Part shown: one piece after another, positions 7,975-59,157 of the stretch
Layout: each line of letters begins with the position of its first letter
How positions within the stretch are numbered: the first letter of the stretch is position 1
Assembly (NCBI GenBank): GCA_947500135.1
Contig: CANMQX010000003.1
Coordinates: 124,001 to 188,000, forward strand
Reading direction: 5' to 3'
DNA from: an uncultured Paracoccaceae bacterium
GTDB lineage: Bacteria; Pseudomonadota; Alphaproteobacteria; Rhodobacterales; Rhodobacteraceae
Length of the DNA: 64,000 nucleotides
Notes under the pieces: model-generated
Told to the model about the DNA's origin: nothing
What the model saw: the letters and a program-made list of their open reading frames with translations, nothing else
Database searches by the model: none
Translations under genes and position numbers: made by a program

Positions 7975-9900
7975 ATGACCAATCGTCCCGAAACCCCGTT
8001 TCTGAATGGCGTGGCTGGCCCTGCCGATCTGCGCCGTTTGAATGATACTGCATTGGCCAATCTGGCTGATGATGTGCGCGCTGAAGTGATCTCTGCCGTG
8101 TCGGAAACTGGCGGGCATTTAGGATCGTCGCTGGGCGTGGTTGAACTGACCGTGGCCCTGCATGCTGTGTTCGATACCCCGCGCGACAAACTAATCTGGG
8201 ACGTGTCGCATCAATGCTATCCGCATAAGGTGCTGACCGGCAGACGCGACCGTATCCGTACCCTGCGGCAGGAAGGCGGGCTTTCCGGTTTCACCAAACG
8301 CAGCGAAAGCGATTATGATCCCTTTGGTGCCGCCCATTCCAGCACCTCCATTTCTGCCGCCCTTGGGTTCACCATTGGCCGCGACATGGGCCAGCCCACG
8401 GGGGACGCGGTTGCTGTGATCGGCGACGGGTCCATCAGTGCCGGTATGGCCTATGAAGCGCTGAACAATGCCGGTGCCGAAGGCCGCCGGATGTTCGTGA
8501 TCCTGAATGACAATGAGATGTCGATCGCCCCACCAACCGGTGCCATGTCGAAATACCTTTCCAGTCTTTACGCCTCGCCCGTGGGTGAATTTCACAAGAT
8601 GGCCGAAGGGTTTGAATCCGCATTGCCCGGTCCGTTGCGCGACCACGCCCGCCGTGCCCGGCAACTGGTGACAGGTATGCAGACCGGCGGATCAGGGACG
8701 CTGTTTGAAGAACTTGGTTTCAGCTATATCGGCCCGATTGACGGGCATGATATGCGCCAGCTTTTGCCGGTGCTGCGCGCCGCCCGCACCCGTGCAACTG
8801 GGCCGGTCCTGATCCATGTTTGTACAACAAAAGGAAAGGGTTACGCCCCCGCCGAGGGCAGCGCCGATTGTGGCCATGGTGTTTCAAAATTCGATGTCGC
8901 CACAGGGGCGCAGGCCAAATCCAAACCCAACGCACCGGCCTATACCAAAGTGTTCGGCAACGCCCTGACAACCGAGGCAGCACTTGATCCCACTGTCGTC
9001 GCAGTAACGGCGGCCATGCCGTCCGGGACAGGGGTAAGCATCATGGGTGAGCGGTTCGCAAACCGGGTGTTTGATGTGGGCATCGCCGAACAGCACGCAG
9101 TGACATTCAGTGCGGGGATGGCCGCGTCGGGCCTGAAACCATTCTGCGCGATTTATTCGACCTTTCTGCAACGCGGCTATGATCAGGTTGTGCATGATGT
9201 TGCCTTGCAAAACTTACCGGTCCGTTTCGCGATAGATCGTGCCGGGCTGGTGGGTGCAGATGGCCCCACCCATGCGGGCGCGTTTGACATCGGCTATATG
9301 GCGGCCCTGCCCAATATGGTCGTGATGGCCGCCGGTGATGAAGTTGAGCTGATGCATATGGTCCGCACGGCCGCGGCCTATGATGCGGGCCCTATCGCAT
9401 TCCGCTATCCGCGCGGCGAAGGCGTGGGGCTCGACCTGCCGGAACGCGGCAATGTGATCGAGATCGGCAAGGGCCGTGTGGTGCAGGAAGGTACTGATAT
9501 TGCTTTGCTTTCCTTTGGTGCCCATCTGGAGGAATGCCGCAAGGCAGCCGAACAGATGGCCACGCAAGGCGTATCGGTGACCATCGCCGATGCCCGTTTT
9601 GCCAAGCCGCTGGACCGCGATCTGATCCGGCAATTGCTGCGTCATCACAAGGCGATTGTGACCGTCGAGCAGGGCGCGCGCGGCGGTTTTGGGGCCATGG
9701 TGCTGCATGATCTGGCCAATGACGGGCTGCTGGACGGGCGCTGCCAATTGCGCACGATGACCCTGCCGGATCGGTATATCGATCAGGCCTCACCGGCGGC
9801 GATGTATGCCGATGCGGGGCTGACGGCGGTGGATATCGCGGCGACGGCAATGCAGGCCGCCGGGATCAAACTGAAACGATCCCCGGTGGGTGTTGCGTAG
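7975..9900 (+). CDS. dxs: 1-deoxy-D-xylulose-5-phosphate synthase
   Basis: DXS signature: [52 protein letters not shown]; 641 aa. Confidence 0.96.
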
Positions 9901-9904
9901 CCCC

Positions 9905-10001
9905 CACCGCACGGTGATTTTCGCGCTGTGCCTCGAATCATAGGTTAACGCCTTATTTTGTTGAGAAACGGGCTGTCGGCGACACGTCGGCGCAACGTCG
10001 G
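9905..10001 (-). repeat. Dispersed intergenic element copy A: 11-bp-phased CCGACG/A x3, GTTAAC, GATTC, CACCGTGCGGTG hairpin (minus-strand reading)
   Basis: Reverse complement aligns with 17232-17340 with identical spacing of all submotifs. Confidence 0.85.
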
Positions 10002-10476
10002 CAAACCGTATGGCACCTTTTCAGCGGTTCGTCAGGTTAAACGACCGCACGGTGCGGGACATGTATCATTGTAAACCCAAGGCCGAAGGCCACACCGTAA
10101 AGTATCGATCAAGGCAATGAAGGTGCTGCTGAGTGTATTGTTCTCGTGCAGTGCTGCATCTTCTGACCATGCTTTGATGAGGTTCGCCAGAATACATGTT
10201 CCACCGCCCAGCTTGTCCGTTTCCGCAAAGTTCAAATACGTTACGAGGCTGCGCGTGCCATCCAAGAAGTCTATTGGGCAACCGCATATCCGATGGCTGG
10301 TTTAAGATGATCGTCTGGTTTCGTCCGTATAGAGCCCGCTACAAACCGGCAATCATCGTCGCTGTTCTTGAAGTTGTAGGTTGCTCAAAAGATGACGACG
10401 TTAGGCCACATACCCATAGAAAGGGATCCCAAATCAGCGAAGCTGCGGTTCACTCTCTTTAACCAAGGGGATGAGC

Positions 10477-11282
10477 ATGGCAGGTTTTGATTTGACGGAT
10501 TTTGAATGATCGGTGATTCAACCGCTTTTGCCGACCAAGGTGCGCGGGGAGGAGCAGGTGGATGACCGCAAGGTGCTGAACGGCATTCTTCCGGCGGCTC
10601 AGAACAGGTGCGCTTTGGGCGGATATACTGGCCCAATGCGGGCCACACACAACCTGCGTGAACCGCTTTAACCGGTGGCGGCGGGCTGGTCAGTCGGCGC
10701 GTATATTGCAAGCAGTATCAGAGGCTTACGATAGCAATGTCCAGATGATTGATGCTCCTCAATCCCCGTTCACCAGCGGGGCGAAAACGGCTCAAAAGGG
10801 GGGCGATCCGATTACATGGGTCGTTCAAGTGGCGGCTTGGCCATTGCCCGGCAGCCGAAACGCAGTTTCGATGAGAGGGGACCAAGATCCACGCGCTGGT
10901 TGATGCCGTTGGCAGACCAGTCCACCTGATGCTGACCGCCGGGCAAGCATATGACGGGTACGCCGCCCTTGAAATGCTGACTGGTTTACCCGACGCCTGC
11001 GACGTTCTGGCTGGCCGGGCATACGACAGCAACGCGATCCGCAAACTTGTTGCCGACCAGAAAGGCAAGGCAGTCATCCCATCCATGCCCCAGCGCAGTC
11101 CTGTCATTCCCGACAACAAAGTCAGATATCGGAATCGCAACTGCGTCGAGCGTTTCTTCAACAAGCTCAAATAGTTCCATGCAATGGCGACGCGCTACGA
11201 CAGGCGTGACGACAACTTCGTGGCATCGATACAACTCGCGTCAATCTGGATCTGGTTGCGAACTTATGAGCCGGTGGCCTAG
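10477..11282 (+). pseudogene. Degraded IS5-family-like transposase
   Basis: MAGFDLTDFE*SVIQPLLP start with W->stop, internal stops and frame disruption; C-terminal fragment LTAGQAYDGYAALEMLTGLPDACDVLAGRAYDSNAIRKLV...YRNRNCVERFFNKLK*FHAMATRYDRR. Confidence 0.75.
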
Positions 11283-17132: not shown

Positions 17133-17231
17133 GACAGGTTGGGCTTGTCGTGATCAACCGTCCAATCCTTAATGCGCGTTAACGCCGCCTGCCGCGCGCT
17201 GCGTTAACGGCGCATATCGGCGCCAAAGGGT

Positions 17232-17340
17232 CCGACGCTTTGCCGACGTCTGGCCGACGCTTTGCAGACCGCCCATTTCCCAACAAAACATGGCGTTAAC
17301 CCGTGATTCGCGGGATCGGACAGAAACCACCGCACGGTGG
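17232..17340 (+). repeat. Dispersed intergenic element copy B upstream of panB: four 11-bp-phased CCGACG-like units, GTTAAC, GATTC, CCACCGCACGGTGG hairpin
   Basis: Direct reading; units start at 17232, 17243, 17254 and 17265; matches reverse complement of 9905-10001. Confidence 0.85.
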
Positions 17341-17418
17341 GGGTCACGCAACGTCCGGTTCTTCGATCTGGAAAGCACGCGCCGGGGCTGTTATCCGGGC
17401 CAAAACCAAACGGAGCTG

Positions 17419-18246
17419 ATGATGAGCGCCACAGCCAAAAAACGTGCCCCCCTGCCCGACGACATCCGGGCCGCCAAAGGTGGCACACCGCTGGTCAGCC
17501 TGACCGCCTATACCACGCCGATGGCGCAGATGATGGACGCGCATTGCGACTTTGTGCTGGTCGGCGACAGCGTCGGCATGGTGCTGCACGGGCTGCCCTC
17601 GACCCTTGGGGTGACGATGGAGATGATGATCCTGCATGGGCAGGCCGTGGCGCGTGGGCTGACATCGGCCATGATGGTGATCGACATGCCGTTCGGGTCT
17701 TACGAGGAAAGCAAGGAACAGGCATTTCGCAACGCCGCCCGGCTGATGGCCGAAACCGGGGCTGGCGCGGTCAAGCTTGAAGGCGGCACCCAAATGGCTG
17801 AAACCATTGCGTTTCTTGTGGCGCGCGGCATTCCCGTTATGGCGCATATCGGCCTGACACCCCAATCGATCAACACGCTGGGCGGCTACAAGGTGCAGGG
17901 GCGGGGCGATGCCCGCGATGCTGCCTTGGCGGATGCCGACGCGGTGGCAGCGGCGGGCGCATTTGCTGTTGTGCTGGAAAAAGTGCCGGAAAGCCTCGCC
18001 GATGAAATCACCGCCCGCGTGCCGATCCCGACCATCGGGATTGGGGCCAGCGCAGGGTGCGACGGGCAGATCCTTGTGGTTGATGACATGCTGGGATTGT
18101 TCACAGCCTTCAAGGCGAAATTCGTCAAACGTTACGCGCATTTGGGCGATGATGGCGCAGCGGCAATTGCGGCCTATGCAGCAGAGGTGCGGGCACGCAC
18201 ATTCCCCGGCACAGAACATGTTTTCGCGGACGAGGCCCCCAAGTGA
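17419..18246 (+). CDS. panB: 3-methyl-2-oxobutanoate hydroxymethyltransferase
   Basis: [34 protein letters not shown]..; followed by panC. Confidence 0.95.
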
Positions 18247-19093: not shown

Positions 19094-19159
19094 CGTCCCG
19101 GGCTTGACCCGGGACCTCTCGCTTGGGCCTGTTTGAGGTCCCGGGTCAAGCCCGGGACG
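19094..19159. repeat. REP-like inverted repeat, copy 1
   Basis: 25-bp perfect arms CGTCCCGGGCTTGACCCGGGACCTC / GAGGTCCCGGGTCAAGCCCGGGACG, 16-nt loop. Confidence 0.92.
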
Positions 19160-24387: not shown

Positions 24388-26161
24388 ACAAGTGTCGGGC
24401 TTGGCGCCGTCGCGTCCCGGACCTGATCCGGGACCTCTACCCGAGCCAGGAGGCCCCGGTTCAAGCCCGGGGCGCCGTCGCTTTCCACCGGCACTGCCGG
24501 TCCTGACACTGTTGGTCATGCTTGGCCCGGTGGTTGCTGGGCTTTGGGGCACACTATTGCCCGCCTTCGGCCATTTGCCTGCCGCTGGCATCACTGGCCC
24601 TTCACTGGACCCGTTTCGCGACTTGTTTGATTGGGCGGGCCTGCCGCGCGCGATGCTCTTATCGGTCAGCACCGGGTTGATCGCCACGGCAGTTTCCCTG
24701 CTGATTGTGATGCTGATCACTGCTGGATGGTCGGGCACGCGCCCGTTTCGTCTGCTGGAGCGGTTGTTATCCCCACTTTTGTCCGTGCCGCATGCGGCAG
24801 CGGCGTTTGGATTGGCGTTCCTGATCGCACCGTCAGGTTGGTTGTCGCGCCTTGTGTCGCCAGGGCTGACAGGTTGGGACCGTCCGCCAGACCTCTTGAT
24901 TGTGCAGGACACATGGGGCCTGACGATGACGGCGGGCCTGATTGTCAAAGAGGTGCCATTCCTGTTGCTGATCACACTGGCCGCATTGGGGCAGGCAGAT
25001 GCAAGGCGCAGTGTGGTGATTTCACAAGCGTTGGGATACGGGCGGTTGACCGGATGGCTCAAAACCGTGTTTCCGCGGGTCTATGCCCAGATCAGGCCAC
25101 CGATTTACGTCGTTCTGGCCTATTCGATGTCTGTTGTGGATGTGGCCGTAATCCTGGGTCCGAACACGCCACCGCCCCTATCTGTCCAGATCGTCAAATG
25201 GATGTCCGATCCTGACCTGGCGATGCGTTTGGAAGGGGCGGCAGGGGCGTTGCTACAACTGCTGCTGGTAATCGGCGCGCTGGTATTTTGGCGGCTGGGC
25301 GAAATGGCCGCGCGCGTCATTGGCCAGCGCTGGATCATTGCTGGCCGCAGGGGCCGGTTTGACGCGATCACGGCGCAAATTGCCCTGGGGTTAGGCACCG
25401 CAAGTGCGCTCGCCGTTTTGTTGGGGGTCGTTGTTCTGACGATCTGGTCATTTGCTGGCTATTGGGGCTTTCCTGACGCGCTGCCCGATCAGCTGACATG
25501 GCGCAATTGGATGCGCCATGGCCCCGGCACGATGGAGGCGTTGGGCGAGACTGCGTTGATTGCGGGCATTGTTGCCCTTGCCGCGCTGATCCTGACCATC
25601 GGCTGCCTTGAGGCTGAATACCGTTATGGTCTGCATATCAGCCAGCGCGGGATCTGGTTGTTGTATCTGCCACTTCTGATCCCGCAAACGGCCTTTCTGC
25701 CGGGTCTGCAAACACTCTTGTTGGGGATCGGGGCCGATGTGGGCCGTGGTCCGGTGATGGCCGCGCATCTGGTGTTTGTGCTGCCATATGTTTTCCTGTC
25801 GCTGGCCGATCCGTTCCGGGCCTGGGACGTGCGGATGGGTACCATTGCCGCCGCCTTGCGGGCCAGCCCGAACGGCGTGCTGTGGCGGGTCCGCTTGCCG
25901 ATGCTGCTGCGCCCGATTCTGACGGCGTTGGCAGTGGGTCTGGCAGTGTCCGTCGGGCAATACCTGCCCACCCTGCTGATCGGTGGTGGGCGGGTTGCGA
26001 CCCTGACAACCGAAGCCGTCGCGCTGGCATCCGGCGGGGACAGGCGGGCAATTGGCGTGTATGGGCTGATGCAAACCGGGGCCGCGCTGGTGCCTTTTGC
26101 GCTGGCATTGCTGGTGCCAGCCGTGGTGTGGCGTAACAGACGGGGACTGCGACATGGATAA
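24377..26161 (+). CDS. ABC transporter permease, YnjC-like (start codon uncertain; first ~35 codons run through a REP-like element)
   Basis: Two-domain permease with many TM segments; N-terminal PSRPGPDPGPLPEPGGPGSSPGRR is encoded by the REP sequence. Confidence 0.82.
   Translation: MRSKQVSGLAPSRPGPDPGPLPEPGGPGSSPGRRRFPPALPVLTLLVMLGPVVAGLWGTLLPAFGHLPAAGITGPSLDPFRDLFDWAGLPRAMLLSVSTGLIATAVSLLIVMLITAGWSGTRPFRLLERLLSPLLSVPHAAAAFGLAFLIAPSGWLSRLVSPGLTGWDRPPDLLIVQDTWGLTMTAGLIVKEVPFLLLITLAALGQADARRSVVISQALGYGRLTGWLKTVFPRVYAQIRPPIYVVLAYSMSVVDVAVILGPNTPPPLSVQIVKWMSDPDLAMRLEGAAGALLQLLLVIGALVFWRLGEMAARVIGQRWIIAGRRGRFDAITAQIALGLGTASALAVLLGVVVLTIWSFAGYWGFPDALPDQLTWRNWMRHGPGTMEALGETALIAGIVALAALILTIGCLEAEYRYGLHISQRGIWLLYLPLLIPQTAFLPGLQTLLLGIGADVGRGPVMAAHLVFVLPYVFLSLADPFRAWDVRMGTIAAALRASPNGVLWRVRLPMLLRPILTALAVGLAVSVGQYLPTLLIGGGRVATLTTEAVALASGGDRRAIGVYGLMQTGAALVPFALALLVPAVVWRNRRGLRHG
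24403..24481. repeat. REP-like inverted repeat, copy 2, flanked by the direct repeat GGCGCCGTCGC
   Basis: GTCCCGGACCTGATCCGGGACCTC...GAGGCCCCGGTTCAAGCCCGG; identical 11-mer at 24403-24413 and 24471-24481. Confidence 0.8.
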
Positions 26162-59081: not shown

Positions 59082-59157
59082 CACCTGTCCCGGACTTGAT
59101 CCGGGACCTCGACCTGAACCGACGCGGAGGTTCCGGGTCATGCCCGGGAGGGTGTCA
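59079..59157. repeat. REP-like inverted repeat, copy 3
   Basis: TGACACC...GTCCCGGACTTGATCCGGGACCTC...GAGGTTCCGGGTCATGCCCGGG...GGTGTCA. Confidence 0.85.

Follow-up and report, generated by a model that had tools for sequence, protein, structure and literature searches.

The window analysed here, a stretch of 64,000 nucleotides, holds two copies (A and B) of a composite element. Both belong to some 80 arrays of 11-bp iterons that are distributed over the whole chromosome and would all be sites for one putative sequence-specific DNA-binding protein. The arrays lie mostly behind genes, are spaced along the chromosome more evenly than at random, and stand at common gene junctions in related genomes, where the iterons occur in two lineage-specific spellings (dialects). 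The likeliest job of the sites would be in chromosome organisation (marking of domains, bridging, anchoring or spacing of the nucleoid), and not in switching the neighbouring genes. We put the probability of this explanation as a whole, that is, chromosome-wide cooperative sites for one predicted protein with lineage-specific specificity and a chromosome-organising role, at roughly 0.55. The arrays are very probably protein-binding sites. A chromosome-scale role stands at even odds or slightly above, and an organising role is more likely than a promoter-regulating one.

Results

The coordinates of the two copies and of the adjoining genes are given in Table 1. The features, order and spacings that the earlier note had claimed for both copies were found at their positions, and the distances are identical in A and B: 52 bp from the second iteron to GTTAAC, 10 bp from GTTAAC to GATTC and 23 bp from GATTC to the palindrome. 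Copy B had correctly been described as the same architecture in inverted orientation, but its degenerate first iteron, CATACG, had been overlooked.

Table 1. Features of copies A and B and adjoining genes in the window
Feature	Position (bp)	Strand	Details
Copy A, left arm	17169-17208	+	TTAA-N6-TTAA ... CCGCGCGCTGCGTTAAC; consensus of 79 anchored copies
Copy A, GGGT	17228-17231	+	precedes array A
Array A	17232-17270	+	four iterons in exact 11-bp steps: CCGACG at 17232, 17243 and 17254, CAGACC at 17265
Copy A, module	17295-17309	+	GTTAAC 17295-17300, GATTC 17305-17309
Copy A, palindrome	17328-17351	+	CACCGCACGGTG (17328), followed by GGGGTCACGCAAC
panB	17419-18246	+	copy A lies upstream of the conserved leader, outside it
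Copy B, left arm	10036-10054	-	CACCGTGCGGTCGTTTAAC
Array B	9974-10012	-	four iterons: CATACG at 10012, CCGACG at 10001 and 9990, CCGACA at 9979
Copy B, module	9935-9949	-	GTTAAC 9949-9944, GATTC 9939-9935
Copy B, palindrome	9890-9916	-	CACCGTGCGGTG (9916-9905) and GGGGGCTACGCAACACCC
dxs	7975-9900	+	1-deoxy-D-xylulose-5-phosphate synthase; 3' end abuts copy B

At 9880-9916, dxs and the right arm of copy B overlap, so that this arm provides the stop codon and the last residues of dxs, SPVGVA. The Dxs C-termini of the array-bearing genomes G026 and G012 resemble this ending; those of the array-free G017 and G002 differ. Beside copy B, open reading frames at about 10718-11234 look, from their translations, like what is left of an IS-type transposase.

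The window's own genome (G000), from a marine member of the Rhodobacteraceae, comprises 4.57 Mb in 34 contigs. When it was searched for CCGACG-N5-CCGACG-N5-CCGAC with at most 2 mismatches, 105 + 64 matches were obtained, against 2 + 2 in the reversed control; with at most 1 mismatch, the three-iteron pattern gave 149 matches against 0. The matches collapse to about 80 distinct arrays, two of which are those in the window. Further copies, on which the earlier note had made its reading depend, are thus present genome-wide against a control close to zero. The usual array has four 11-bp iterons, CCGACG-N5, and up to six were observed.

In an alignment of 79 copies, the constant part was GGGT followed by the four iterons. 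A left arm of the type TTAA-N6-TTAA ... CCGCGCGCTGCGTTAAC is carried by many copies but not by all; of the 79 anchored copies behind this consensus, 42 are full. The string TTAA..GATTC occurs 43 times across the 79 copies, in 37 cases with an offset of +64 or +65 relative to the first iteron, and the expression CACCG..CGGT (palindrome CACCGNNCGGTG) has 8 matches. Since GTTAAC/GATTC is found in about half of the copies and CACCGNNCGGTG in about a tenth, the iteron array has to be regarded as the constant part, and the composite of approximately 190 bp seen in the window represents one variant of the site and does not define it. Of the conserved architecture of about 105 bp proposed earlier, the iteron array is common to all copies, whereas the full architecture is the form of a subset.

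The GATTC of the module had been put forward as a possible target of CcrM. A GANTC is present at the module position in 44 of the 79 copies, and in 43 of these 44 the N is a T and hence not free. The remaining 35 copies lack the site there and still keep the iterons, so a methylation site is not a general feature of the copies and is not what constrains them, and we rejected CcrM/GANTC as a conserved feature of the arrays. A structured RNA was rejected as well: an Rfam scan of the window gave no match, and the fold of copy A (z +0.85) was no more stable than its shuffles.

For the position of the arrays relative to genes we used gene models from a simple codon-usage predictor, which are not curated annotation, and compared the gaps holding arrays with other gaps of at least 80 bp. 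The arrays are intergenic; only one of the 79 reaches more than 10 bp into a predicted gene. Convergent gaps are enriched (25 of 79 arrays, odds ratio 4.6, P = 1.5e-6) and divergent gaps are depleted (10 of 79, odds ratio 0.26, P = 4e-5). Adjacent stop codons are closer (median 87.5 bp) than adjacent start codons (median 162 bp). On the strength of the divergent-gap depletion and of these distances, the promoter regulon of one transcription factor is poorly supported, although a promoter-level role is possible at some sites, 10 arrays being in divergent gaps. Eighteen neighbours could be named (dxs, panB, gap, bchL, asd, pth, rpsA, murD, rplL, gltD, mutS, rimP, gatB, cmk, lpd, tgt, ilvB and recO); all of them serve housekeeping or biosynthesis, and no pathway unites them. 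At panB the array lies upstream of a leader that array-free relatives also possess. The view of the element as one belonging to panB had to be abandoned, since the roughly 80 junctions with arrays are unrelated, divergent promoters are avoided and, at panB itself, the array stays outside the conserved leader.

These positions bear on an explanation in which a global transcription regulator, of the OmpR/PhoB response regulator type or a BldC-like winged-helix protein, regulates, insulates or roadblocks the neighbouring genes. Arrays at stop codons would then curb read-through, or antisense transcription, where genes converge. A place at 3' ends and in convergent gaps suits a roadblock, but the array between ppaC and a HAD gene lies in a gap of about 80 bp between two genes of the same direction, and a terminator at this place would shut off the downstream one. 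Likewise, head-to-tail direct repeats of 11 bp are the binding target of BldC (PMC5859096) and of PhoP (PMC4832192), but the neighbours are functionally unrelated, divergent promoter regions are avoided, and even spacing along the chromosome is unexpected for a regulon. We consider a regulator of this kind unlikely. The arrays stay at fixed junctions, mostly behind stop codons and between convergent genes, where they do least harm to promoters; in the reading that we prefer, they would serve chromosome organisation.

Conservation was studied in four other genomes with CCGACG arrays (CANKYO, CANMQO, CANNFQ and CANLYJ), all from uncultured Rhodobacteraceae isolates. In this partial sample, at least 53 of the 79 arrays of G000 have a counterpart that adjoins the same gene, 36 of them on both sides. 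Between the most diverged genome pairs, identity is 96% at the iteron bases and 55% in the spacers, and the flanks (-40 to -6, 38-60 and 80-100) are 35-55% identical. Most of the loci compared had been picked by the iteron pattern, which biases the first three iterons; the fourth, which the pattern did not include, is constrained in the same way, with its first, third, fourth and fifth bases (four of five) kept at 0.93-1.0. At orthologous loci the spacing is not lost: the array upstream of panB is kept in four genomes (G012, G017, G023 and G026) and that downstream of dxs in three (G012, G026 and G032). Constant iterons amid drifting spacers and flanks bear out the earlier suggestion of functional constraint on same-face direct repeats for a predicted protein. 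With iterons one helical turn apart, its protomers would bind cooperatively, in a head-to-tail row along a single face of the helix. In about half of the sampled genomes of the genus, arrays of both dialects are rare or absent, and the system is therefore not essential across the genus; these array-poor genomes may have lost it or may use a third spelling.

The intervals between arrays in G000 have a coefficient of variation (CV) of 0.57, against 0.95 for random placement, and 3 intervals are shorter than 10 kb where 12.5 were expected. On the complete 3.9-Mb chromosome of G021, which uses the second dialect, the CV is 0.63 against 0.98, with at least 72 arrays among the matches listed. In G012, also among the matches listed, it is 0.68-0.71 against 0.91-0.92, a weaker evenness than in G000 and G021. 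Sites missing from these lists are expected to make the spacing of G021 and G012 seem less regular, not more. Arrays are typically about 45-55 kb apart. The largest interval between the arrays listed for G021 is about 177 kb; with no gap above about 180 kb anywhere along this chromosome, a depletion at the terminus like that of Noc and SlmA sites is absent. The even spacing could also have another origin, either in an old mobile element with target immunity or in selection against recombination among the copies.

In G000, the oriented GC skew is biased (71% negative). The complete chromosome of G021 has no two-arc orientation pattern, and orientation relative to genes is a confounder; for both reasons we do not claim a replication-oriented polarity. 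Contig C11 of G000 (L389-L392), a probable plasmid with ParA-like and RepB-like genes, had no array in the 80 kb examined, a sample of plasmid DNA too small for a claim that plasmids exclude the arrays.

Genomes of the same genus that lack CCGACG arrays often have arrays of GTAC-N7 with the same 11-bp period. These GTAC arrays were found in at least 10 genomes of the genus, and none in G000, G023, G026 and G032. The CCGACG dialect belongs to the clade of G000, G012, G023 and G026 and to G032, and the GTAC dialect to another large clade. A tree of ppaC (a single gene, support values not considered) shows dialects that follow clades, with G032 and G034 apart from the main clades of both dialects.

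The two dialects meet at common junctions. Of 39 GTAC loci, many pair with CCGACG loci through their neighbour genes, mostly with offsets below about 130 bp; this set of matches is uncurated and includes a few that are weak or between paralogues. From G021, 7 distinct sites were sampled, and 4 of them coincide with arrays of G000 (L365, L367, L377 and L379). The ppaC-HAD gap carries CCGACG arrays in five genomes, GTAC arrays in at least nine, degenerate arrays in a few and none in the rest. Behind dxs, CCGACG arrays are present in G000, G026, G012 and G032, and ACG/GTAC-type iterons in G034, which retains the GGTTAACCTATGATTCG core (GGTTAAC/GATTC) and the arms despite its different iterons. 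GTAC-type iterons lie inside the same composite arms in G017 as well as in G034. We suggest that the specificity of the reader differs between lineages, and that reader and sites would co-evolve.

Dispersal by a non-autonomous mobile element (MITE or REP-like, active or as remnants), with a transposase reading the iterons and target immunity spacing the copies, has to be weighed against these observations. About 80 dispersed composites of about 190 bp have arms in common, but the arms decay while the iterons persist, many copies consist of iterons only, and no arms are obvious in the GTAC arrays examined from genomes other than G017 and G034. Neither terminal repeats nor target duplications were noticed on incidental inspection. 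Patchy occurrence in the genus would fit such an element, and the regular spacing could be its immunity; the copies, however, are old and keep their positions even between genomes with a flank identity of no more than 75-90%, and one and the same junction has different iterons by species. We regard a mobile origin as improbable. A tag for DNA uptake or self-recognition that is spelled differently by species is more improbable still: the dialects are lineage-specific and largely consistent with the gene tree, as are those of the DNA uptake sequences (DUS) of Neisseriaceae (PMC3630211), but some 70-80 sites per genome stand against thousands for DUS (PMC3630211), and long multi-iteron sites at fixed positions are not numerous short tags.

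A block around panB in G017 (C3, 182937-196712) is about 91% identical to G012, against 72-86% in its surroundings. This excess of identity and the CCGACG array in a genome of the GTAC dialect suggest a recent exchange of the block. An unusually long CCGACG array of five or six iterons lies at about 1494-1554 of L077 (G022:C53), behind an ArfB-like gene, a junction that is occupied by a GTAC array in G027. A role of the G022 array as plasmid centromere was rejected on account of this place and of the junction common to G027. Viral contigs contain few CCGACG arrays, mostly perfect simple repeats; those on contigs L461 and L467 have varying spacers and resemble the chromosomal ones.

Discussion

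The nearest concepts that we found are the Noc and SlmA sites and the DUS dialects, and, as tested, the arrays are a member of neither. Noc has about 70 binding sites (NBS) and SlmA 24-52 (SBS), scattered over the chromosome (PMC4726725). The arrays, too, are tens of scattered sequence-specific sites (about 80 in G000, at least 72 in G021) that do not form a promoter regulon. One protein reads all Noc or SlmA sites, and for the arrays we infer one reader protein per genome. The sites of Noc and SlmA are palindromes, whereas the arrays are direct repeats (CCGACG is not palindromic, and GTAC only as a 4-mer). NBS and SBS are under-represented near the terminus, unlike the arrays listed for G021, which leave no gap above about 180 kb anywhere on its complete chromosome. 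The Noc and SlmA type of reader is a ParB-like or TetR-like division inhibitor; that of the arrays is putative. In Neisseriaceae, the DUS tag differs between lineages and is conserved within each genome (PMC3630211), and the arrays likewise show one lineage-specific dialect across a genome. DUS, however, are short, exist in hundreds to thousands of copies and act in transformation, whereas the arrays number about 80, have four iterons and stand at conserved, evenly spaced junctions.

The predicted mode of binding is ordinary, because BldC, RdfS, PhoP and the ParR of plasmid R1 are all known to read direct repeats at about one turn per protomer. For BldC, head-to-tail oligomers form on direct repeats whose number varies (PMC5859096); RdfS is another such reader (PMC11963761), and the motifs recognised by M. 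tuberculosis PhoP are 7 bp long and separated by a 4-bp spacer (PMC4832192). Like the filaments of BldC, lambda Xis and RdfS and like OmpR/PhoB-type regulators, the array reader would bind head to tail to repeats about one turn apart and variable in number. Those proteins are promoter or recombination factors, and we found neither even genome-wide spacing nor dialect switching described for them. R1 ParR needs two 11-bp repeats (PMC9426499). With parC the arrays have in common direct repeats of a period of about 10-11 bp, and ParR is a ribbon-helix-helix protein whose specificity differs between families (PMC9426499). However, parC is a single locus beside parMR, whereas the approximately 80 arrays are dispersed beside housekeeping genes, and no adjacent par genes were noticed.

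No description of genome-wide, evenly spaced, dialect-switching arrays was found in a literature search whose coverage lay mostly outside subscription journals. Arrays of this kind escape a search for a single motif, because their spelling differs in each lineage. We tentatively propose, at somewhat less than even odds, that they represent an undescribed chromosome-marking system, in which one cooperative protein tiles the chromosome every 45-55 kb or so and its recognition sequence has been rewritten lineage-wide with the sites left in place. If this is true, the Rhodobacteraceae would gain a system of sites that matches those of Noc and SlmA in number, but is evenly spaced and has no gap at the terminus. 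Dozens of paired sites with a changed recognition sequence and a kept position would then be a natural experiment in the co-evolution of reader and sites. Such pairs would make it testable by what route a genome-wide DNA-binding protein changes its specificity and yet keeps its sites, and whether a regular spacing of sites sets the size of domains in bacterial chromosomes.

REP and BIME elements are extragenic, often lie behind genes and have many copies, and the arrays share these properties. Unlike REP and BIME, the arrays have strict 11-bp iterons, a position conserved across species, even spacing and an in-place change of iteron class.

The window also contains a dispersed REP-like palindrome, GTCCCGG..TTGA.CCGGGACCTC, at 19094-19159, 1896-1931, 24412-24447 and 59087-59120. 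In the repeat at 19094-19159 the arms are 100% complementary, and a similar sequence is present in the ppaC gap of G021 and G034.
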